Below are positions 17,154-51,025 of a stretch of DNA of 64,000 nt, piece by piece; the first letter of the stretch is position 1; each line of letters begins with the position of its first letter. The notes below the pieces were generated by a model that saw only the letters and a list, made by a program, of their open reading frames with translations, was not told where the DNA came from and did not search any database. Source of the stretch: Tausonia pullulans (lineage: Eukaryota; Basidiomycota; Tremellomycetes; Cystofilobasidiales; Mrakiaceae). The stretch is from contig OX637637.1 in assembly GCA_951802195.1 (NCBI GenBank), positions 248,001-312,000 of the forward strand. Reading direction: 5' to 3'. A program made the translations under genes and the position numbers.

Positions 17154-17633
17154 GGGGTTGCGTACGGGCAGGAGGAGAAACCGAGGAGGGAAGTTGGAGG
17201 CAAGGAGAGGAGAGGGCCGGTTGGAGAGGGCTGGAGAGGTGCGAGAGGTTCGAGAGGTGCGAGAGAGGGAGAGGGACAGAGAGCCCGAAGAGGGAGCGAG
17301 CAAGCGATGTCAGCGGAGGCTCCGCCGTCCAGGAGCGCCCGCAGAGACAGAGGGTCTGCGCGTCGGCCGACCCCTTGGTCCCTTATTGCGGCAGTATAGG
17401 GCTACGTGTCTTGATCTATGCCTGTGATAACCCGAAACGACCTCTCGTGTACGCGCTGTACCGGGTCGACGGCCAATTATAGACCTTATATGACGGGAGA
17501 GAAGCCAACCAACTTCGGGTCCGAACTGTGCCTGTCATCCATCCCTCCTCATGTTGCGGAACAATCTGACGAGTATGGAGCTCTCTCGACAGCGAGAGCA
17601 AAAGAGGGGCTCCTCTGGGGGAGGAGAGTATTT

Positions 17634-17706
17634 TGGAGACTATAAGAGTTGAACTCATGACCTTACACATGCTAAGCGTACGCTCTACCAACTGAGCTAA
17701 ATCCCC
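17634..17706 (-). tRNA. tRNA-Ala (AGC), left arm of inverted unit
   Basis: The 73-nt cloverleaf has no intron. The acceptor GGGGATT pairs with AGTCTCC and contains the G3-U70 pair that marks alanine tRNAs. The D arm is GCTC/GAGC, the anticodon loop is TTAGCAT (AGC), and the T arm has loop TTCAACT. The A box TAGCTCAGTTGG fits the consensus; the B box (GTTCAACTC) differs from the usual GTTCGA by one base. It is identical to the two other copies in this window. No T-run follows closely on its 3' side, so termination may be weak. Confidence 0.72.
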
Positions 17707-18651
17707 AACTGATTCTTGTGTGGAACTGGGAACCAAGCCATATCATTCTCAGTACACAATGCGAACCACGCGTTTCGACTCACCATCTCTCATAGGGTTA
17801 CCTCGTCCTTCACGTATCAGTCATGACTTAAATACAAAAACATGAAATCTTATGGGCATAGGCCCATAATATTTCACTTTCCTTCCACCTCTTCTTCCAT
17901 TTTTGCTCTCCCTCTATCTAACTACGACTCGCTATCGCTCATCGGGATGTCTCGTCCTCTACGTATGACTCGTGACTTATATACAGTAAAGATACATACT
18001 TCCATGACTGAAAGGACACTAATAAAGCCTATTACTCTCTGTCTATATCTTCTGTGGTCCTTGTTCCTCTCATTCGCCGTCTCTATGTGTCGCACCGCCA
18101 TCCACGCTTCATCCATTGCTTTAAGGCAAAGGGTATGACCCTCACTACGAGAGACAGAGAGATAAGGGGATATTATATATTCAAACTAAGGAGGAAAGTG
18201 AAGGGGGCTATGCATAGATTGCATAGACAGGGAAGACGAGGGGAGGGGGAGGGGGGAGTGAGAGAGTACAACTACAAAGAGGCGGGATGGGGAACAAATC
18301 CGAAACTATCAGCACCCCACGCCGACCGTCCGACAGACGTCTGTATCTCGCGAATTCGCCACCTCAGCTCTGCACCTCTATAGCATCTCCCTTGCTTGCT
18401 TGGCTCCCTATCTTCTATATTTCTTCTGTCACAATGGCCCGTACTCTTTGCTTCCGTTCACTTATCCTCCCTTCCCTTGTTCTCACCCTTCGTATATGAA
18501 ACGCTTGGGTTCGTTGTACACTGTGTTTTGAAGTCTGACTATCATTCGGACTCGACGAGCCTGTCCAAGGCTTCTACGCGAGTCCATGCCACTACCAGCA
18601 CTTCAGCAGTTCCATTGTTCCACCGATGCCCTTCTCCTCAACCCATCCCTG

Positions 18652-19011: not shown

Positions 19012-19185
19012 TAGTTTATTTCATCTAACTCGCGCACGTGGCTCGCTTTATCATTGTTATATAAGTCATGAGTCATGCGTGAAGGACAAGGTAACCCTAT
19101 GAGAGATGGTGAGTCGAAACGCGTGGTTCGCATTGTGTACTGAGAATGATATGGCTTGGTTCCCAGTTCCACACAAGAATCAGTT

Positions 19186-19258
19186 GGGGATTTAGCTCAG
19201 TTGGTAGAGCGTACGCTTAGCATGTGTAAGGTCATGAGTTCAACTCTTATAGTCTCCA
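19186..19258 (+). tRNA. tRNA-Ala (AGC), right arm of inverted unit
   Basis: The sequence is identical to the left-arm copy, with the anticodon AGC at 19219-19221 and G3-U70 present. A run of five T lies about 26 nt downstream (19284-19288 region), a reasonable RNA polymerase III stop. The conserved flank upstream reads TTCCACACAAGAATCAGTT directly before the acceptor stem. Confidence 0.75.
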
Positions 19259-19576
19259 AGAACCTCTTCACCGAGGATTAACCCTTTTTGACCTTTTAAT
19301 ATTGTATGCATCTCTTTCCCGATCAGCCTCAAGGACTGCTATCCTGCTCGCCTTAAGATTCCCACATCCCCAGCTACCCTCATGTTATTTCATATGCGAT
19401 GCTGGAGGACAGACGGACTATCGAGCGCGACTCCTAGACGACGGGCGACCGACGCAAGCGCGTCCCCTCCACGCTGACGAGCGGGCTGACCTCCCTCGCC
19501 TCTCGCGCCGCCCTCGCCTCTTAACCACCATCTTTCCCGCCCTTTCCCCCCACTCTCTCCCCTCCCCCCTCAAACC

Positions 19577-29305: not shown

Positions 29306-32300
29306 TCATCTCTTGCGAGGTCGACGGCCGACGTTCTTCTTGCCGAGATCATTGGCGGCCATCTGAAGAGAGAGTCTTTTCGTCAGTGTCGTCCTCATCA
29401 TGCACCACAAGCGTAGCTGGACGCACCTCCTCTAGCCGTTGCCGATCAAAGTGTTGCCCAAGCCACCGCACCAAGATGGTCCCCGGCGCACCCGACCCAC
29501 TCGTGTCGCTCGGCCCGGTCCAGTCGGAAAAGATTGCCGGGTCGACGGTCGGGTGGCGAATGAGGTACTCATCGAGCGGAAGGAACTGCCTTCGCCGGGC
29601 GAGGACATCGTACATCTTTTCGCGGACCGAGAGGGAGGCTCCATCCGAGACGACCCAGAGATGCTCGAGCAGTGGGAGGGGCGGTCGTTCGGGATGGGCG
29701 GCATTGATGCGGTCAATTTCCTCGACGACTGAAAGAAAATGAATCAGCCCTAGCTCATGGCAGATGGCGCGATGATGGATAAATGACGAACTGCGACAGG
29801 CCATCTCGCCGATTGTCAGAACGGAGCGGTCATCGCCGTCCATGCCCTCGAAAGGCAGCGACGTTGAGATGAGGAGCGTCCCGTCTGTGGACCGAAAGTC
29901 AGTCATACATCCTCAACTCAGCTCTGGACGAGCCCAACCATCACTCACTCAGCATGGACCAGTCTCCAAGCCAGAGACCAACGAGGTCACGCCCAGGAGG
30001 GATGATGACGTTGGCTGAGAAGCGTCATACGGTCAGAAACAGGCACGTTCGGTGTGAAGGAAGAGCAGATCCAACGCACTCCTTCGCATATTGGCGAGTT
30101 CGCCCGTCGCGCCCGCGACAGTCTCGCCGTCGAGGGCGTCAGGTTCCTCCTGCTTAGCCGGTCCCCGGCGCATCTTCGTCCTGGCCCAAGTGAGACCCAA
30201 GAACTGCGCGGGAAAATCAGTTAGCAGGGTGCGCATGTAAGAGGGCGATCGACTGGTTCATGAACTCACCCTGCGAGGGGTGTGCATGTCGTCCGGATGC
30301 CTCGGCGCAAGTACCGTCTGCGCGCTCGGCCAACCACGGTCGAGCATCTCCTTGATGCCCTGGAACGAACCAAACGTGTCGCTTGCAGGGCCCTCGAGGA
30401 CTTCGGGGATTGCCATCCGAGCGAGGACACACTCCCGCCATGCTTGGGAGCACCGGGCGACCATCTCGGCCGCGACAGCCGGGTCGGCTTGGATTTCGGC
30501 GATGTCCCAAACGCCGAGCTCAAGAGGGGAAGAGCCGAGACGGGTGTGGCTGAGAGAGCAGGTCCGGCGGCCGTTTTGGAAGAGCTCTTTGCAGCGCCTG
30601 GCGGATAGAGGGGTCGTTAAAAAACAGGATCGGGCTGGTATCAGGGACAAGAGAGACCGGGGGCACTGACCACTTGCCGATGCTGCGATAGAAAGATAGG
30701 ACTAGTGGGCGTCAGCATTTGAAAGTTGAGGAAGAATTGGGGAGGACCGAGACGCACCCGATTCGACCTCCTCCACCCCCTCCGCAGTCTGTGCAGCGGG
30801 AGTACGTCTCCTCGCATGAGATGCAGACGTACTACGAGGAGGAGCAAGGTCAGTGCCTGGTGATCCCCCTAGTGAACGACAACGGGCCAAACACTCACCT
30901 CAACTGTGAAATTGATCGTTCCCCTTGGGTCGACCGGCACAATTCCGCCCTCACCCTTGGCTCTGAGACAGACATCGCAAACCATGGCAGCCGTAAGGTC
31001 CTGCGTCTCCCTATTTCTCTTTCTCCTCACGACTGGCTCGGCCGAAGCGCTGCCACCCCCCGTCTCGCTGCCCTTCTTACCCCCCGTAGAAGCAGTATTG
31101 GTACCCGCGACGCCTGCATCTGGGCCACCACCAGCGACACAGATGAGACACCGCCAGACGCCCTCCCACTCTGCGAGTGGAACGCCGGGCTCACCCCTGA
31201 GAAGGAGGTGCGCTAGCGGCCGAGAGCATGTCCCGCACGTTGCGAGCGGGCGGGAAGGGTGGAGGACCCGCTTCGTCCGGCGGCTGACTCCACCTCCGGC
31301 AGAAAATGAGGCCGCCTTGCCTCCATCGGTCTTCTTCGCCGTGGTGGTGGAAGCGGACGACGATAACGGCGAGGAGCGGGCTCTTTTGGGCGTCGACGCA
31401 CTGCTGTTCATCCGGGGAGGTCTCGCAGGGCGCTTGGAGGCGGTCACCGGTACAGGGTCTTCTTCTCCATTGGCGGGCGAGACAAAGCGGGAAGACTCAG
31501 GGGAAGATGCCCCCGAAGCCGAGCTCGACTCATCCTCGCCATTGACCTCCGAGGCGGACCCTGATCGCAATGGCCGAGGGTCACTCGAGCCTTTCGACGG
31601 CTGCTGGCTGCGCTCCTGATCCTGAGTATAGAGGTGGTGCGGGTTGTGACCCGACCATCCTCCCGTCCCGCTGCCGTTGCTGCTACCTGGCGGGCCGAGG
31701 TCATCGTCTGTGAGCTGTCGTGGGATCGGCGGGTAAGGAGGGACGGTCTCGTAGATGTAGTGTGCCGCCGGAGGAGGCTGGTCCGCTAAGGGCAGGCCCG
31801 TGAAGAAGTCGCGGTACTCAGTTGTGATAGGGAGGAGGGGCTGCGGCGGGGCGGAAGTCGGCTGTGACACGTGCTGCTGCGACAACTGGTGGTGGTATGG
31901 GTGGTGGTGCTGATGGTAGTGCTGGGCATAGAGCGACTGCTGCTGCGCCGACGTGGTCGGTGGCGGCGGGAGGCTGAGGATCGGGTGATGCTGGTGGCTA
32001 TAGAGCGGGGGCGCCAGGGGGAGCTGTTCTCCGAACGAGCCTGGGACGTGCATTGGCGGCGGCGGCGGCTGAGAGTAATACGTGTGACCGCCGATGACGA
32101 CGACTCCTTGCTCATACGGCTGCTGAGAAGGGTAATGTTGGTCGGCCGGCGGCTGGTGATAAGACGCCGCAGAGGACTGCAGCGGAGAGGAGGACTGGTG
32201 GTGTCCGTCTGGAGGGCCGGCCGCCGCAGCCTGGGCTGCCGGGGGTAGAGGGGACTCGGGATATCCGATCGGGATAGGAGGCAAGGTCTCGGACGTGCTA

Positions 32301-33381
32301 TTTGTGTGTGCGAGGCCATATCAGAACAAGGCAGACGCACCCAAACAGCGAAAGGAAGAACTCACGGATAAGGCGCGTACATGCCGTAGCTAGCACCGGG
32401 AGCAGCCGCCCCACCGACTGCCGAGGTCGACTGCGCGCGTCTCAGGTGAGGAGGTGGCGCCGATGGCGGCTGGCCACCGCCCGGCGCGGCGTGGTGGTGG
32501 TATAGAGGAGCATGGTGGAGCGAGATGCCAGGGTCTGGCAGCTGGGGGCGGTCCATCGCCTCGCCCGGGTATGAGTGCCTTCCGAGGGTGCCGGGGGCGA
32601 TGGGAAATGAACCCGGGTAGCCGCTGGGAATGGCGGTCGGGGGCGTTGAGTGCTGGGGTGGAGGAGGGGTGTAGTGCTGATTTTGATGCATCTGGGGGAA
32701 ATGGGTCAGGTGGAAGCCGGCGTTGGGGTCTTGCTGGTAGTGGGCAGATGTGGGAGAGAGAGTCGGGTAAGCCAGCTTCTGGTGATGCCGCTCCGATCGA
32801 TTCGATATTCGACCGTCCGAGTTCGGTCCAGCGACGCTCTCAACACGCTGTTGCTGTTCGTCACTCAAGCGCCGATCGGAGGAGGACACCTCCTCGTGGT
32901 ACAGCTGCTGCTCGTGGTGCAGCTGCTGGTGGACAGTCATCTGCTCGGCTGCTTCGCCTCGAGCCGGCCAAGTCGACGATGCAGCGGGGGAGGCCGAGCA
33001 GGGCCTACTCGAGCTGCTGGCGCTCTCTCTGCCCGTGGAAGGTCCATTGGCTCCCTTTTCTCTTCTGTTCATTCCAGTCGACGTCAAGCCATGCGACGAA
33101 GATGTCGACAAGCCGGTGGACATCTGCGGAAGCGAGAGGTTGCCACCACCTCCGGCGTCTGCGGACAAGTCGCCGCCAGAGGAGGAGGGTGTGGGGCCGA
33201 AGAGTACGTGAAACTCGGTGGAGAGAGGCTCCTGCTGGTGGTGCTGATGGTGGTGATGTTGCTGTCGAGGTGTCGACGCCGATGAGGACGAGGCAGTGGA
33301 TATTGGTAGAGGGGACAGTTGATGGTGGTGCTGCTGCCTATGAGGCTCAGCAGCCAACGGTGAAGAGTAGCCCGAGGACAT
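29306..33381 (-). CDS. Unknown zinc-cysteine protein with long disordered N-terminus
   Basis: I do not recognise the family. The first 750 or so residues are disordered and rich in His, Gln, Ser and Pro, starting MSSGYSSPLAAEPHRQQ. A basic patch (SRRTKRVLHPSRP) precedes four CxxC pairs: CGTC, then CLIC, then CDVC, CISC and CTDC with a run of Gly between exons, and later RRTCSLSHTRLG. The C-terminal 400 residues look globular: VWDIAEIQADPAVAAEMVAR, SDTFGSFQGIKEMLDRGWPS, VIIPPGRDLVGLWLGDWSM, LWVVSDGASLSVREKMYDVL and ILVRWLGQHFDRQRLEE. The end is basic (KKNVGRRPRKR). The layout of a low-complexity half, zinc sites and a basic patch suggests a nuclear regulator, but this is inference. A very long non-coding stretch lies upstream. 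Confidence 0.68.
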
Positions 33382-36300
33382 TCTCGTGAGTGTTGTTTTT
33401 TATTCGCGCAGGAGGTGAATAAGAGGAGGAAAGGGAAGGGGGAGGGGAGGGAGGAAAACGCCGGGGAATCGACGAGTGACGCGTGGCGACGGAGTGAAAG
33501 AAGTTGCGTCTGTCGTGTCTGTTGGTCGGTCCGACGACGCCGGGAATAGAAACTTGGAAGGTTGGCGAAGGATCGACGCGCGCGTGAAAATGTGAGTCCG
33601 TTTCTCCGAGTGGGGATCTCGGACTCAGCGAACGGCGAGAGGGCCTAGGTCCTATGCGCTTTGCTCTGGCTGGGAGCGAGAACCAAGGAGGGAGGCGCGC
33701 AAGAGAAAGCCGAAGAAAGAAAAAGGCGAGGACTTGTCGTCAGCGTCGAAGCAAGGATGTAGGAAAGATGAGCTGGAGAGCGAAGCAATCGCGAGGCAAA
33801 AACAGTGGAAGAAGGGGAGAAGAGAGAAAAGAGAAAGCGGGGAAGAGAGAGGCGAAGGGATCCATGGAGGTAAAACGCCTGAGCTGTTGCCCTCATGTTG
33901 CGAGCACAAGGCATAGGCCTGGTGACTCTTCTCCTTCGCCATGCCACGCGAACAACGCCCATGGGAGGGAGATGAGGGGTGGAGGTCATCCATCCTTCCA
34001 GGCATGGCCGTCTGCCTGTCTTACCTGACGCAAGTCAACGAGAGAGGACAGATCGCGGCAGAACCGATTCTCTCGACGGGTTCCTCCCCACATCTCAGAA
34101 GAAGGGTCCGGAGGGCTGGCCCTCGCCTCAACTTCGCCGTTTTTCCCGGGGGGAGGGATCGGGTGTCTGGCTAGTTCGGCACAGGCGAGAGCAGTCCAGA
34201 GGAGGACACGGGATGGAGGACGAAGAGGGGAGAGACATGATGATGTCTGTAGGATGCTCCAACGAATCGCCCAAACGAGACTCTTATTGACGCGATGCTC
34301 AAGGGAGGATCCAAGCGAACTGCAAGTCCGCCTCTCTGACGCGAAAGCACATGCGAAAGGGCTGGACAGGCGCATGGAAGAGCTCGGCAAGGCGCGCACG
34401 GACGGACCGACTTGCCTTACCGAGCCGGATGACGATGCCATTCAGTCCCCACCACGAAGACACATGGGAAGGCGGTCGGTGGCTAAGAAAGATTGGGCTG
34501 ACCTCTAGACCGTACGTCTAGGCAAAATGAGGCGGGAGGGTCGATAGACAGGCAGCCAAGAGTGTCGCCTCCTGCTGCTGCTGGGCGCGGCGGCGTGCTG
34601 CTCCAAGGGAAATGAGACAAGGGACCTTCGAGGACCGGTCTGGACGTAGACGTAGGCGGGCGGTCTTGCAGTCGAAGTGGGTGCTTGCTGTCGGAGCTCG
34701 AGGCGAGTAGTCGAGGAAGGGCGAGTCCGGCCGATGGAGAGCAAGAACGAGGAGACGGCGAGGCCAGGCGGGTCGATGGGTTGACAGTTGAGTTGGGAAA
34801 AAAGAATAAGAGAGCTTCGTCGCTGGACGAGTCTAGGACTCCAAAGAGACCAAAACGAGTGATGTGGGGAGCGAGGAGTCTTGCTTGCCAAACGAGCGGA
34901 TGCTGAGTGTCGCCTGAGCTCGCTGCAGGTGCGAGGACCTGGGTGCGAGTGAGGCGTCGGTGACCCAGCCGAGCAGGCGGCGGAGAGCGAGCGGTCGCGT
35001 CCGGGTCCGAGGAGTCGGCAAGTCCGGAGCGTGGGGGGAGGAGGAAGGAGGAGAGAGGGGACAGAAGGGGAAAGGCGAGACCTCGTGCGGGGGAAGGAGG
35101 GGGAAGGAGGATTGAGAGCTGCTCTTTGGGCGAGAGGCAGCACGGGAGGGTGGGCGAGCGGGCGGCGGAGCTGGAGGGTGGGTGAAGGGGGAGGCCGAGA
35201 GCGACCGAGGGGGTTAAGTCAAGAGAGAGTGAATTGAGAGAGAGGGGTGAAGCGAGCGGCGGGCGGGCAAGTAGATTATTGCTTGGTCGGAGAGACAGAG
35301 CGGGGAGGATTGGGACCACCGGCGACCGGGCCTGTCTGGATTGGTCGTGGAAGCGTGGGCGGGGAAGCGTGGGGCGGAGGGGCGAAAACAGAGAAAGGAC
35401 GAGGACAGAGGGAAAGGACGGAGAGGCGCACCTCGTTTCCAAGACAGGACGTTTGGGAGGGCAGAGAGAGGCGCACGGATGTAAACACGGCAAGAGGTTA
35501 ACACGTAGTCGAGTATTGGCGGAGATGCCTGCAAGAAAGCATCTGAGCGAAGGACAGAAGCCGCGCGTATGATGAAGAAGACTCAAGCACCCACGATAGA
35601 CGGCCGGCCGGCGGGCTCCGAGGAGCAAAGACAGGGCGAGAGCTGATCGCCGCGCGCATGCAGGAGAGGAAGAGCCACGCGAGGGTGAAGCCAGGGCCAC
35701 GAGGGTAGGCGACGGACGAACCGGAGCAATGATTTGTCTGCGAAAACCAGAGAGCCGTGGACAGCATGTGCGATGACCTAGAACGCCCGAAGGTTCGTCT
35801 TTAGTGTCTCTAGTTCTCGCTGTCTGTGTACCTCGCCTCTTTTCTCTCTCTTTCGCTCTCGCTCCCCTTCTCTACTGCCGAGACAAGCCGAGAGAAACGA
35901 CGCAGGTCCGAAACATGAGAAGACCGCTGCCAAATTAATGGCAGGTAGTCGCCAGCTGGCACATTCCTGGCGAGAATTGTCGCGCCGCCCCACGCTATGG
36001 CCTCATTTGCGAAGACAACAATCACTTTAATAAGGAGCAGGGGCAAGGCCCAGTGGAAGCAGATGAACGTCGTCACATCTGTGTACGCAGCGATCTTTGA
36101 AGTCTGACAAAGCAGTCAACACCAGTTAAAGTCCGCAACGTTTGGACGGGCTGCTGATCCCGTCCTTTTTCTCGTCCTGGTTCCCTTCCATGTCTCGGTC
36201 GTGGTCTCGTCTCGAGGAGTCCGGTTCGAGGGCTGACGACACACGTCTTCTCTTTCCGGCCAGAAATGACGACGGCAATGATCCCAAAGCAAGACGACAG

Positions 36301-37036
36301 CTCTCTGCTTACATCGCATCGATGAATTAATTGGAAGAGGAAGTACCTGTTCAGGCGCATGATCTGAGAGGAGTCGAGCGGCCGCCACCCTTCTCCGACC
36401 GAGTTGGCCGAACATCAGCACAAAGGAGAGGCGGAGACGGCGCGCCTAACTAGCAATAGTATCATCAATATGCTGACGTGAACTTGCCGCCGTCATCACC
36501 CTTCATCGTTTCAACATCTCGACCGACATCGTCAGCTCCCCCGAGCAGACACATACTCGACTTCAGATGGCCCGTAGCCATCAATAATTGGAGGAAAGGA
36601 CAATGTATTCGACCGCCTCTCTCTTCTCTTTGATGGGCTCCCCACAAATATCAATGTCTCTCATTGACGGAGGACGACGATGTCGATGGCCGAAATTTAT
36701 TGAGTACCGGGGCCCCCTGAAACCGACGATCCAAGTGAATTAATTGATCGATATAATGGCGGAGTTTTCCTTTTTGCTTTTATGAGAAAAAAAGACAAAA
36801 GAAAGCGACTCAAAGGGTCCGACTATTGATCTCAGGTTAGCATTGCCAGTCAGGGCCGAATTGGGGCAACTCCCGGTTGGCCTGAAAGCCGCAACGCGCG
36901 CGCGTCTGAAGTCAACGACGCATCGTACGAGCAACGCGACGCAACCAAGTCTAGTTGACGGCCCGCCTTTTCCAAGCAGAGTCTTCAGCTGGCTGACAAG
37001 AGAAGTTCATCCCACCTCCTGCTCTAGCTCTGCCAC
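33382..37036. other. 3.65-kb gene-free region, pyrimidine-rich on the minus strand
   Basis: No gene is supported here. From about 34.5 to 35.7 kb the minus strand is strongly C/T-rich with a 405-codon open frame (34483-35700) made of Ser, Pro, Leu and Arg; this is composition, not a protein. Between 35.8 and 36.4 kb short minus-strand frames have a few hydrophobic stretches but no splicing I can defend. The region may be a long promoter or 5' leader of the zinc-cysteine gene, which starts at 33381, or may hold a non-coding RNA. Confidence 0.5.
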
Positions 37037-40000
37037 TCAGGCGCCCGTTCCTCTCTCCCAATCGCCGCTCTTTCCGCCGGACTTCTTCGTCACCATGAGA
37101 CCGTCGATTATCATCTCCTTGCCTGCGACGGCTTTGACCACTGGGATGGGAGCAAGTCAGCTTCTTTGAATGAAGAGGGAAAGAGGGAAAAACGTACTAT
37201 CCCAAACAGTGAGGAGGGCCACGGACGCAGCTGTGAGAGCCTCCATCTGGTCACCAAGCGTGCGTAAGCGAGAGGAGCAACAAGTACACAAGATAGAGAG
37301 AAGTGTTAGAGCCACGCACCTCCACTCCCGTACTCCCAACGCACTCCGTCCTTGTCTCAACCCTCACCCACCCACCCTCCTCTTCCCTCTCCCTTTCTCC
37401 CTCCTTTTCCCCCTCTCCATCTCTCTCCTCATCCTCGGCGATCTCCACCTCAAGCCCCTCAATCTCAAATCGGACGTCCACCCCACTCAGCATTAACCCG
37501 TGACACAGCGGGATCAGCTCGCTCGTCCGCTTCGCAGCCATTACGCCGGCGAGTTGGGCCGTCACGAGTGCATCGCCTTTTTTGGAGCGGGTTGGATGAG
37601 TGAGGAGATTGAGCGCTGCGGAAGGCTGTCGAAGGGGGTGTCAGCGCTGGAAGGAGGAGAGGGAAGGAAGGCGGAAAGGAAGGGAGACGGACGAGCCAGA
37701 TCCGACCTGTGGCGGTCGCTGAGCGCGTCGTAGGTGGTTTAGTAGTTATAGTGACCATTTTGGGCAAGCCCGTGTGCGGGTCGATGTGCGTTAGCTGAGG
37801 GGTGGCGGTAGCGGAGATGGGCTGTTGTCGCACCGCTGCTGCTTCTGGCGCAGGAGGCGGAGATGGGGAGGTGAGGGTGGCGGTGGAAGGGTCGAGAGAG
37901 GCAACGGTGGGAGATAATGGGTTGGTGGCAGGTCCTCCAACGGGAGCGAGCTCCTGCCATGTCAACGGCGCCGAAGGAGCCGGGGACTTGATCTTGCAGG
38001 CCGCGGCGGGGGTGAAGTCATGGGAGGTGTGGATGTGGGCCCGCTGGTGATGAGTCGTTGAGGGGAAATACGAATGGAGAAGGGAAAGTGGATGAATGGT
38101 GGGCGAAGAGAGGAAGGGGATGGAAAGAAGAGAGTCGGTGAATGCGGAGGAGGAGCGGCGGCTGGGAGGGAACCGTTGCGAGCTGGGAGCACCTAGAGTT
38201 ACAAAAGAGGGAGTCAGCCGGAGAGTTAGGTGCGTGAGAGCGAGGTCGGTCGGCGAGCGGCGTGATGGGTCATCCACTCCCCCTCCCTCCCTCCCATCAC
38301 CTCTTTCATCATCGTCTCATCCCAGCAATCACGCACCAAGATGTATTGGTGGGCGAGCTTGAGAAGTAGCCGAGTGTTCCCTCCTTCCCGTCATCTCTCG
38401 CAGTGTCGTTTCACCCACCAATGAGGATCATCGGCCTGTTGAGCCCATCCTTGAGCTGCTCCATCCCGGCGTGCTTCTCCCGTTTGCGACCAACGGCGAG
38501 CCGGATTATCTCGAGGAGCTCGCCATCCGAGGCGCCTTGGCGAACAAGGTCACGAAGAGAGACCTCGGCGTTACCGAAGAGGCAGACCTAGGAGAGAAGT
38601 GTCAGCTCTAGAAGACAGGATGGAGAGAACAAGGATGGCCGACCTTGAGGTTTCCGTCGGCCGTGATACGGAGGCGGTTGCACGTTCCACAAAAGTGCTC
38701 GGTCTGGAGAAGAAGACCAGGTAATTCAGCCTTGATGCACGCACAAGGGAGGAAGAAATCTTCACCAACCATGCTCGTAATGAAGCCGACCTTGCCCGTG
38801 AATCCAGGGACGCGCCAGCCTTTGCTCGTGTCGTTCGGGTCGTCCTCGACCTTAGCAAAGTCCGGGTACTTAGCGCGGATCGTCTCGAGCATGTCATGGT
38901 ACGAGTACATCTTGCCGTGGCTCCACTTGTTGCCTACGAGGGGCAGGGGAGGTGAGCACCTCGAGCATGCAAAAGACAGAGAGAGACCGCTTTGTGACTC
39001 ACCAGAAAACGGCATATACTCGATAAACCGGACCTCGATATTCTGATCCCTCGTGAGCTCGACAAAATCGACAACCTCGTCTTCGTTAAACCCCCGCATG
39101 ACAACGACGTTGAGCTTGGTTGTCAGCCCGTGATCAGCGAGCCCCCGAGCCGTCGAGAGCGACCGAAGCACGGCCGAGTGGCCCTGGCGGCGGGTGATGA
39201 ACTCGAACTTTTCCGGAACAAGTGTGTCAAGGGAAAGGTTGAGGTGGGTGAGACCATTATCGACGAGCGTCGGGAGCTTCCGGTGGAGAGCGATACCATT
39301 AGAGGTCATGCCGATCTGGGTGAGGCCGAGCGGGCGGAGGGAGTTGAGGGTGCCTAAGGGGTGGTCGTCGTTTGCCTTCTCAGCCGACAGCCAGCCAGCT
39401 CTGAGGTGTTTTGGCACCTACCGATTAAGTCAACGATCCCCTTGCGGACCGTCGGTTCCCCGCCCGTGAGCCGGATCTTGGTGACGCCCTCGCGGACAAA
39501 GAGCCTCGCTAGCTGGACGACCTCGCTGTCCGAGAGCATCTGGTTCGCCGGCTGGAGGTCAATCCCCTCGGCGGGCATGCAGTAGGTGCCTGTGCGCTCG
39601 AACGCCAGCGTGAGTGTGACTCTTGGTAGGTACATGTCTCGCGCTCTCTCACATCGCAGGTTGCACTTCTCTGTGAGCGAGATGCGGAGATATGTGTGGT
39701 GTCTATTGAACTTGTCTGTGAGCGCTGGTGAGCGATAGGGCCGGTGCGAGTCGATCGACATGATTCGGGCCTGGGATATAAGGAAGACGAAAGGATCAGG
39801 AAGGGAACGAGAGAAAGGCAAGTGTCCTCTCGCGAGTTACACCACAATCACTAGGCGGAGACACGCGAGCGACGGACGTCTCCGAAGCGAGGGAGCGAGA
39901 AAGGCGTTGACGATGAAACGGAGGGCAGAAGAACAGTTGAACATGCTGAGAGAGGATGCTGATGGAACCAATCTCGTCGTCGCTGCAGCCTTGAAGCAGT

Positions 40001-40330
40001 CAACAAGTGCTCTGCTCCGTCGCGTGCTTTGAGTTGGCGCTCGAATGATAGGCCAACGACATGCTGGTGCTAGCCGCGGTAAGGCCCGAGGAGGAGGTCA
40101 CCGAATCGAAAGCTCACTTTGGCCACGCTTCTCAGCGTGAGAGGGACTTCCGGAGGAGGCTGCTCGACCGTAACCGTCGCTATTGTCCGTCGGGAGGGCG
40201 CCGTCGAGAACGGGAAGAACGAAGAACGTCGCCGTGGGACGATGGCGAGCGACGAGGCTCCATGGGACGGGACCTTAATAAGTGAAAGCCGGACGGAGGA
40301 GGTCGAGGCCGATGCGATTGGGAGAACCAT
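37037..40330 (-). CDS. Fused MoaA-MoaC molybdenum cofactor protein (MOCS1/cnxABC type)
   Basis: It makes cyclic pyranopterin monophosphate from GTP, the first step of molybdenum cofactor synthesis. Exon 1 encodes an Arg/Ser-rich mitochondrial presequence ([20 protein letters not shown], later RRTIATVTV) and joins in phase over a 347-nt intron (39771-40117) to [14 protein letters not shown]. The MoaA half has the radical-SAM motif CNLRCTYC (split by an intron), [16 protein letters not shown], and the second cluster [18 protein letters not shown]. It ends PMILIG at a 226-nt intron (38193-38418). The MoaC half follows a linker of about 120 residues: [51 protein letters not shown] and [12 protein letters not shown]. 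An acidic Glu-rich insert lies inside MoaC. If translation started at the internal MSIDS Met, a cytosolic form would result. See findings for the linker intron. Confidence 0.9.
38193..38418 (-). promoter_or_regulatory. Linker intron whose retention gives a Gly-Gly-ended MoaA
   Basis: The donor GTGGGT at 38418 and acceptor TAG at 38193-38195 join ATT G to GT GCT in phase, giving ILIG-APSS. Left unspliced, the same frame reads ILIGG and stops at TGA (38411-38413). MoaA proteins need a free C-terminal Gly-Gly, and animal MOCS1 is known to make A-only and A-B forms by alternative splicing at this point. Whether both transcripts exist here is not shown. Confidence 0.6.
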
Positions 40331-40895
40331 AGCTTAGAGCCTGCCAAGATGGAAAAGAAAAGATGGTGGGTGGTTGGAGGGAGAGAAGGAAAGCGAGTCA
40401 GGCCTCGGTCTTGGGCGAGAGGTGGTGAGACTCGTCCGCCCTGGTCGGACCTCGGGCGGGCAAACCGATTTCAACAACTCGTGGCCGCTCACACGACAGG
40501 AGATAAAGCTCACTGTGCGCCTGTCGAGTGAGAGACGGCCAGGAGCAGCGAGATGTGGTAGTGGCGAAGCTGCTGTTGCCAGGAAGATGGTGGTACGCGC
40601 GCGCATGAGCACGCGCCACCCAAAAGACGCAGCCATTCCTGTTGCACCTTTCTCTCCACTCCGCTGTTGCTGTTCCCATATCCTTCCCCTTGCTGAAAAA
40701 GAAAGGGAAGCTCTCCTCCTTGACGATGAACCAGGGATGCTCGCTGGGCACGGTCCTTTCTCCCAGAGAAGGGCGAGCGCAAGAGAGAGGGAGAGAGAGC
40801 ACGGACTCCCCTTCGACGACGACCACCAACCCGAGACGGCTCTCGCTCTCTACACCTTTCATCCATCCACCCATCTCCTCTATCCATCCATCCAC

Positions 40896-50396: not shown

Positions 50397-50878
50397 GGTG
50401 GAAGTTTTGCTGGTCAGGGAGAAGATGACAGCAAGCGCGATTGGGGTAGTCGTCGAAGGGAAGAAACTGGGGAGGTTATAGGGAGATGATGGAGGCGGAG
50501 GGGAGAAGAAAGAGAGCCATGCGAACAGGACTCGGAGGTGGCCGACACCCTTGGAATTAGAGACAGAAGGATCGGGCGACTCCGACAGTCGCAAGAGGTA
50601 GCTTGTTTAAGAAGCAGGCTGAGAGAGAACAGGAATAATAAAAAAACCTTCCATCTCCAACTCTGTGCGCGCTTGCCTCTCTGGCTGACAGCTTTGTTTC
50701 CTTCAACATCGCGCCGGGCAGGTGGACGTATTGGGGAAGCTCTCTCGCTCTGTGTCGCGAAGAAACGCTCGCCTCGACTTGAGAGAAGGAAAGGCAATTT
50801 CATTCAGATACGCCAAGCATAAAAATCATGAACATTGTCCGGAATGCAACAAAATGACATCTCTGGTGAGGAGATTCT

Positions 50879-50951
50879 TGGAGACTATAAGAGTTGAACT
50901 CATGACCTTACACATGCTAAGCGTACGCTCTACCAACTGAGCTAAATCCCC
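50879..50951 (-). tRNA. tRNA-Ala (AGC), third copy
   Basis: All 73 bases are identical to the two copies near 18 kb, with anticodon AGC and the G3-U70 pair. A TTTT lies about 25-30 nt past its 3' end on the minus strand. The 5' flank matches the other copies at only about 75 percent over 80 bp, so the tRNA has been held constant while its surroundings drifted. Confidence 0.75.
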
Positions 50952-51025
50952 AATTGATTCTTGTGTTGAAGTGAGAGCTAAACCATATTGTTCTTAGCGT
51001 ACAACAAAAACCACACGTTCTACAA

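Follow-up and report, generated by a model that had tools for sequence, protein, structure and literature searches.

The MoaA-MoaC gene of Tausonia pullulans is, with a probability that we put at about 0.8, a basidiomycete counterpart of Neurospora crassa nit-7, in which retention of the intron that precedes the linker yields a Gly-Gly-ended MoaA and its splicing yields a MoaA-MoaC fusion. MoaA requires a free Gly-Gly end. Part of the mRNA would keep the linker intron and give an active, Gly-Gly-ended MoaA (GTP 3',8-cyclase), and the remaining mRNA would be spliced and give the fusion, whose MoaA part would have no Gly-Gly end and is probably inactive. The fusion would bring MoaC into mitochondria by means of the MoaA presequence, and MoaC would be cut free there. 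By analogy with N. crassa we infer that both mRNAs exist, and hence that the intron is retained in T. pullulans.

The original prediction, that one gene can be read both as a Gly-Gly-ended MoaA and as a fusion lacking that end, is well supported by the single locus, the complete domains, the offsets shared with N. crassa and the fitting junction in related proteins, and its interpretation as a whole is probably right. The mechanism of retention is itself not new, having been published for N. crassa nit-7 (PMC7232280, of which parts were available). If retention occurs as we propose, the nit-7 switch, proven in one ascomycete, is now placed in a basidiomycete at identical nucleotide offsets. 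The value of the present case is this nucleotide-exact occurrence, together with the junction data and two testable leads, an intronic anti-donor and a presequence-like motif in the linkers of many other fusions, which may be novel.

Gene structure and the two readings

The gene occupies 40330-37037 on the minus strand of the 64-kb stretch of DNA that was analysed as a whole (the window). It runs from an ATG at 40330 to a TGA at 37039-37037 and has eleven exons and ten introns (Table 1), the boundaries of intron 8 being set by comparison with Mrakia. The spliced product has 733 aa, with Radical_SAM, Mob_synth_C and MoaC domains all above the Pfam cut-offs, and the product with the linker intron kept has 416 aa and ends in NRPMILIGG. 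Exon 9 (37625-37320) encodes an acidic, repetitive insert within MoaC that is longer than that of Mrakia.

Table 1. Features of the MoaA-MoaC gene and its linker intron, in positions of the window
Feature	Position	Strand	Basis
Exon 1: start codon and basic, presequence-like MoaA N-terminus	40118..40330	-	mitochondrial targeting predicted from composition
Intron 1, 347 nt	40117-39771	-	gene model
Intron 2, 63 nt	39652-39590	-	gene model
Intron 3, 68 nt	39421-39354	-	gene model
Intron 4, 69 nt	39002-38934	-	gene model
Intron 5, 66 nt	38769-38704	-	gene model
Intron 6, 56 nt	38643-38588	-	gene model
Exon 7: last MoaA exon, ending ...NRPMILI and the first base of a Gly codon	38419..38587	-	
GGT GGG TGA: Gly-Gly-stop if intron kept; overlaps donor G/GTGGGT	38411..38419	-	
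Linker intron (intron 7), 226 nt, GT...AG, phase 1; alternatively kept element	38193..38418	-	gene model
Intronic 12-nt complement of 38411-38422; possible anti-donor	38345..38356	-	inverted repeat, folding
Second donor-like site GTGCGTGA, 3' of the Gly-Gly stop	38329..38336	-	putative, from sequence
Branch-point-like CTGAC, 22 nt from the 3' splice site	38213..38217	-	consensus match
Exon 8: linker (APSS...) and start of MoaC domain	37693..38192	-	gene model, Pfam
Intron 8, 67 nt	37692-37626	-	gene model
Exons 9-11: remainder of MoaC, stop TGA 37039-37037	37037..37625	-	gene model, Pfam
Intron 9, 73 nt	37319-37247	-	gene model
Intron 10, 57 nt	37197-37141	-	gene model

The linker intron begins within a Gly codon (G/GTGGGTGA, the slash marking the splice site), and its donor and acceptor agree in phase 1, as had been proposed. 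With the intron kept, the frame reads Gly-Gly and then TGA at 38413-38411, in accordance with the original prediction; with it removed, the second Gly is gone and the frame reads ILIG-APSS and stays open through MoaC to the final TGA. Splicing of this one intron takes off the Gly-Gly end and joins MoaC in frame. The Gly-Gly-stop protein pattern was found a single time in the window and in none of 100 shuffles; a search of contig collections for the same pattern gave 27 genomic stretches, all bacterial by title, and no viral ones.

The linker intron is about three times as long as eight of the other introns (56-73 nt), yet shorter than intron 1, so unusual length alone was rejected as an explanation. 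Two pyrimidine-rich stretches of 39 nt, at 38284-38322 and 38378-38416, lie in the linker intron region and are 74% alike.

Searches of the whole assembly (23.86 Mb in 21 contigs) with the MoaC family, the MoaA C-terminal family and a 342-aa MoaA query each matched the MoaA-MoaC gene alone, and no second MoaA or MoaC was found across the assembly by these family and query searches. One locus thus encodes both enzymes. Other loci of the assembly encode MoaE, MoCF-type domains (two loci) and sulfite-oxidase/nitrate-reductase-type domains (three loci), from which it follows that the organism uses molybdenum cofactor; a single gene was found for the start of its synthesis. A xanthine-dehydrogenase-type molybdenum domain had no match in the whole assembly, although this was a search with one family that is blind to introns and leaves absence unproven.

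Comparison with nit-7 and other known systems

Animal MOCS1, which had been named as the precedent, is a valid one, but the closest is fungal and already published, N. crassa nit-7, and had gone unnamed. According to the available parts of PMC7232280, unspliced nit-7 mRNA gives NIT-7A and spliced mRNA gives NIT-7AB, in which the A domain is inactive. Table 1 of PMC7232280 lists nucleotides 1-1464 with a stop as the NIT-7A coding sequence and 1460-1696 as the intron, numbers that place the Gly codon at 1462-1464 and the stop at 1465-1467. The phenotypes reported there indicate that both forms are needed; a strain with a mutated donor showed no significant growth on nitrate, and NIT-7AB combined with NIT-7B did not give wild-type-like growth. 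The same parts of the paper state that nitrate raised only the non-spliced mRNA, and that the fusion loses its A part once imported into mitochondria.

The offsets of the Gly codon and the intron in T. pullulans are those of nit-7 by the numbers in that table. In both species a single gene encodes MoaA and MoaC, and the intron splits a Gly codon after its first base, with the second Gly at nucleotides 3-5 of the intron and the stop at nucleotides 6-8. The linker intron is long in both (237 nt in N. crassa, 226 nt in T. pullulans), and the assignment of forms would be the same, with the Gly-Gly form unspliced and the fusion spliced. The two differ in the number of introns, one in nit-7 as described in PMC7232280 and ten in T. 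pullulans.

No fungal case besides nit-7 was found among the literature matches listed, which cover few subscription journals. Bacterial moaA and moaC, and likewise plant cnx2 and cnx3, encode the same two enzymes in separate genes without a splicing switch. Animal MOCS1 (MOCS1A/MOCS1AB) resembles the present gene in that alternative splicing at the MoaA end yields both MoaA and a MoaA-MoaC fusion from a single locus, but there it is exon 9 that is alternatively spliced, and not one intron that is retained; its MoaC is freed by proteolysis, and for the human protein an internal targeting motif and a cleavage at position 432 have been reported (PMC9607355, in the parts available). A candidate for alternative sites of the MOCS1 type in T. 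pullulans is the putative donor at 38336 within the intron.

The junction in related proteins

Three protein searches, of which the best 120 matches each were taken, gave 328 different proteins, mostly fungal and some animal. Thirteen were dropped where the end motif was not recognised (three of them read RPMIKIG, and several others had no clear end). The remaining 315 comprise 90 that end at the MoaA end and 225 that continue as fusions; they are mutually related, and many, notably the fusions, are gene predictions. All counts below refer to the matches listed.

Among the proteins ending at MoaA, 88 of 90 end exactly in Gly-Gly, the other two ending in GAF and VFSKDQDY. In 225 of 225 fusions the residue that follows is one whose codons begin with G (Gly 125, Asp 88, Ala 5, Val 4, Glu 3), a count to be read with the caution that fusion predictions tend to pick a GT within a Gly codon; further along the linker, at positions 3 to 6, such residues occur in just 36-48 of the 225. 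The 100 next residues that are not Gly, found in 91 of the 119 fusions of the mostly ascomycete set and 9 of the 106 of the mostly basidiomycete set, point to an intron that splits this codon after its first base. Position 2 also holds a G-start residue in 89 of 106 fusions of the mostly basidiomycete set vs 24 of 119 of the ascomycete set, which suggests that in many Agaricomycetes the first Gly is intact and the second Gly codon is split, so that the exact base is not kept everywhere. The donor would seem to have shifted to the second Gly codon in these fusions, and for the retained reading a stop would have to follow the GT directly.

The closest protein among the matches listed is that of Mrakia frigida (81% identity), with Phaffia rhodozyma next among the fungal fusions; both belong to the Cystofilobasidiales, Tremellomycetes. 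The Mrakia fusion reads ILI-GHQQ. The N. crassa fusion, for which the intron is proven, reads ILI-DTNTN and has a Gly-Gly-ended relative with 96.9% identity over 486 aa, whose longest contig is 13.7 kb. Another Gly-Gly-ended protein, encoded on a contig no longer than 1,980 nt, matches the Pisolithus tinctorius fusion with 99.1% identity over 344 aa. Within the genera Tilletia, Pleurotus and Sordaria gene models read either way, and models that give only a Gly-Gly-ended MoaA or only a fusion may be half right.

On these comparisons, linker introns within or beside this codon seem to be widespread among fungi. If so, retention here would be a long-kept route to two proteins and not noise. A point against the two-product reading is that retention in Cryptococcus neoformans, a member of the same class (Tremellomycetes), is reported to contribute little to the proteome, with a model in which retained mRNAs stay in the nucleus (PMC5006051, available parts).

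Alternative explanations

Both products might be made with the Gly-Gly form coming from some other mRNA that keeps the stop, through splicing from the donor-like site at 38336 or through polyadenylation within the intron. That site scores as well as the main linker donor (9.26 vs 8.96) and its use would give the same protein. N. crassa has a third variant, delta1469-1696, with a donor 9 nt further down, which by our reading of its numbers keeps the stop, but the available parts of PMC7232280 report this variant as not essential. For polyadenylation, the one signal-like match listed over the intron and the sequence after it is a weak AATACA at 38347, and on balance we consider such a source of the Gly-Gly form unlikely.

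We give even less credence to the view that the intron is always removed, the Gly-stop being a by-product of the donor consensus and MoaA being active in, or cut from, the fusion. Measured against the other donors of the gene, the linker donor is not weak; it has the top leave-one-out score among the ten donors, for which reason a weak donor was discarded as the cause of retention. From the donor counts of the gene, about 3% of phase-1 donors are estimated to give Gly-stop, and as the donor consensus itself favours Gly, the window alone is weak evidence and the case is carried by position and comparison. What gives the Gly-stop reading its weight is that it falls exactly on the conserved Gly-Gly end of MoaA and that its offsets are identical to those of nit-7, together with the protein comparison, in which separately ending MoaA proteins nearly all end in Gly-Gly. 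The growth reported for N. crassa with NIT-7AB and NIT-7B likewise speaks against constant removal, which we hold to be very improbable.

Translation of MoaC from its own AUG on unspliced mRNA was also considered and set aside, exon 8 having a single AUG in the MoaC frame, at 37758. It is further disfavoured by N. crassa, in which NIT-7A together with NIT-7B did not give wild-type-like growth (PMC7232280, available parts).

A possible anti-donor in the linker intron

Under retention of the linker intron in part of the mRNA, the choice between the forms could have a structural basis. An inverted repeat, noticed post hoc, allows 38422-38411, which hold the donor and the Gly-Gly-stop, to pair with 38356-38345. 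When the 226 nt downstream of each of the ten donors were compared, the best complement was that of the linker donor, matched by 5 of 1000 shuffles (9 of 2000 in a second run), a figure for a single donor where ten were tested. The complement of the intron 8 donor was matched by 14 of 1000 shuffles, and that donor is masked only from 175 nt transcribed, past its 67-nt intron.

In folds of the growing RNA with 90-120 nt of the linker intron, the helix has a probability of 0.96-1.00 and the donor an accessibility of 0.01-0.02, equally low accessibility being reached by 4 of 300 shuffles. The helix has almost vanished at 150 nt and at full length, where accessibility reaches 0.45 and 0.28, respectively; at 175 nt accessibility is again low (0.01). 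A stable fold of the whole intron was rejected as a candidate (z = -1.43, equalled by 18 of 200 shuffles), and it had no donor helix in the fuller analysis. No known RNA family reached its gathering score over 37000-40420.

It is conceivable, if rather improbable, that RNA structure sets the choice of enzyme in this way. Pairing with the anti-donor while the intron is transcribed would hide the splice site and favour the Gly-Gly form, and later sequence or a bound factor would open the helix and permit splicing. If this holds, and if an intron lies within or beside this codon throughout the fungi, the Gly-Gly donor would be an ancient switch by which RNA controls the supply of molybdenum cofactor.

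A linker motif and the possible release of MoaC

The motif R-x-[FYW]-[ST]-[ST], which we take to resemble mitochondrial presequence cleavage sites, is found among the matches listed in 46 of 106 fusion linkers of the mostly basidiomycete set (300 shuffles: mean 1.6, largest 6) and in 64 of 116 linkers of the ascomycete set (mean 2.3, largest 10), the two sets having at most six proteins in common. It lies mostly within some 30 residues of MoaC, and elsewhere it occurs in 9 of 90 N-terminal parts and 0 of 105 MoaA cores among the same matches. MoaC could be released at this motif, which would agree with the release of NIT-7B.

The strict motif is present in the listed linker of Neurospora hispaniola and absent from that of T. 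pullulans, which has RAHIHTS instead; it is also absent from the Mrakia and Phaffia linkers. With regard to mitochondrial import, the T. pullulans protein has the basic N-terminus and lacks the strict linker motif.

Other features of the window

Three tRNA-Ala (AGC) genes are predicted by ARAGORN with the bacterial code, at 17633-17707 (-), 19185-19259 (+) and 50878-50952 (-). Strand asymmetry is strong at 32001-36000, where GC skew (0.253) and AT skew (0.152) are both the highest of the sixteen 4-kb blocks.
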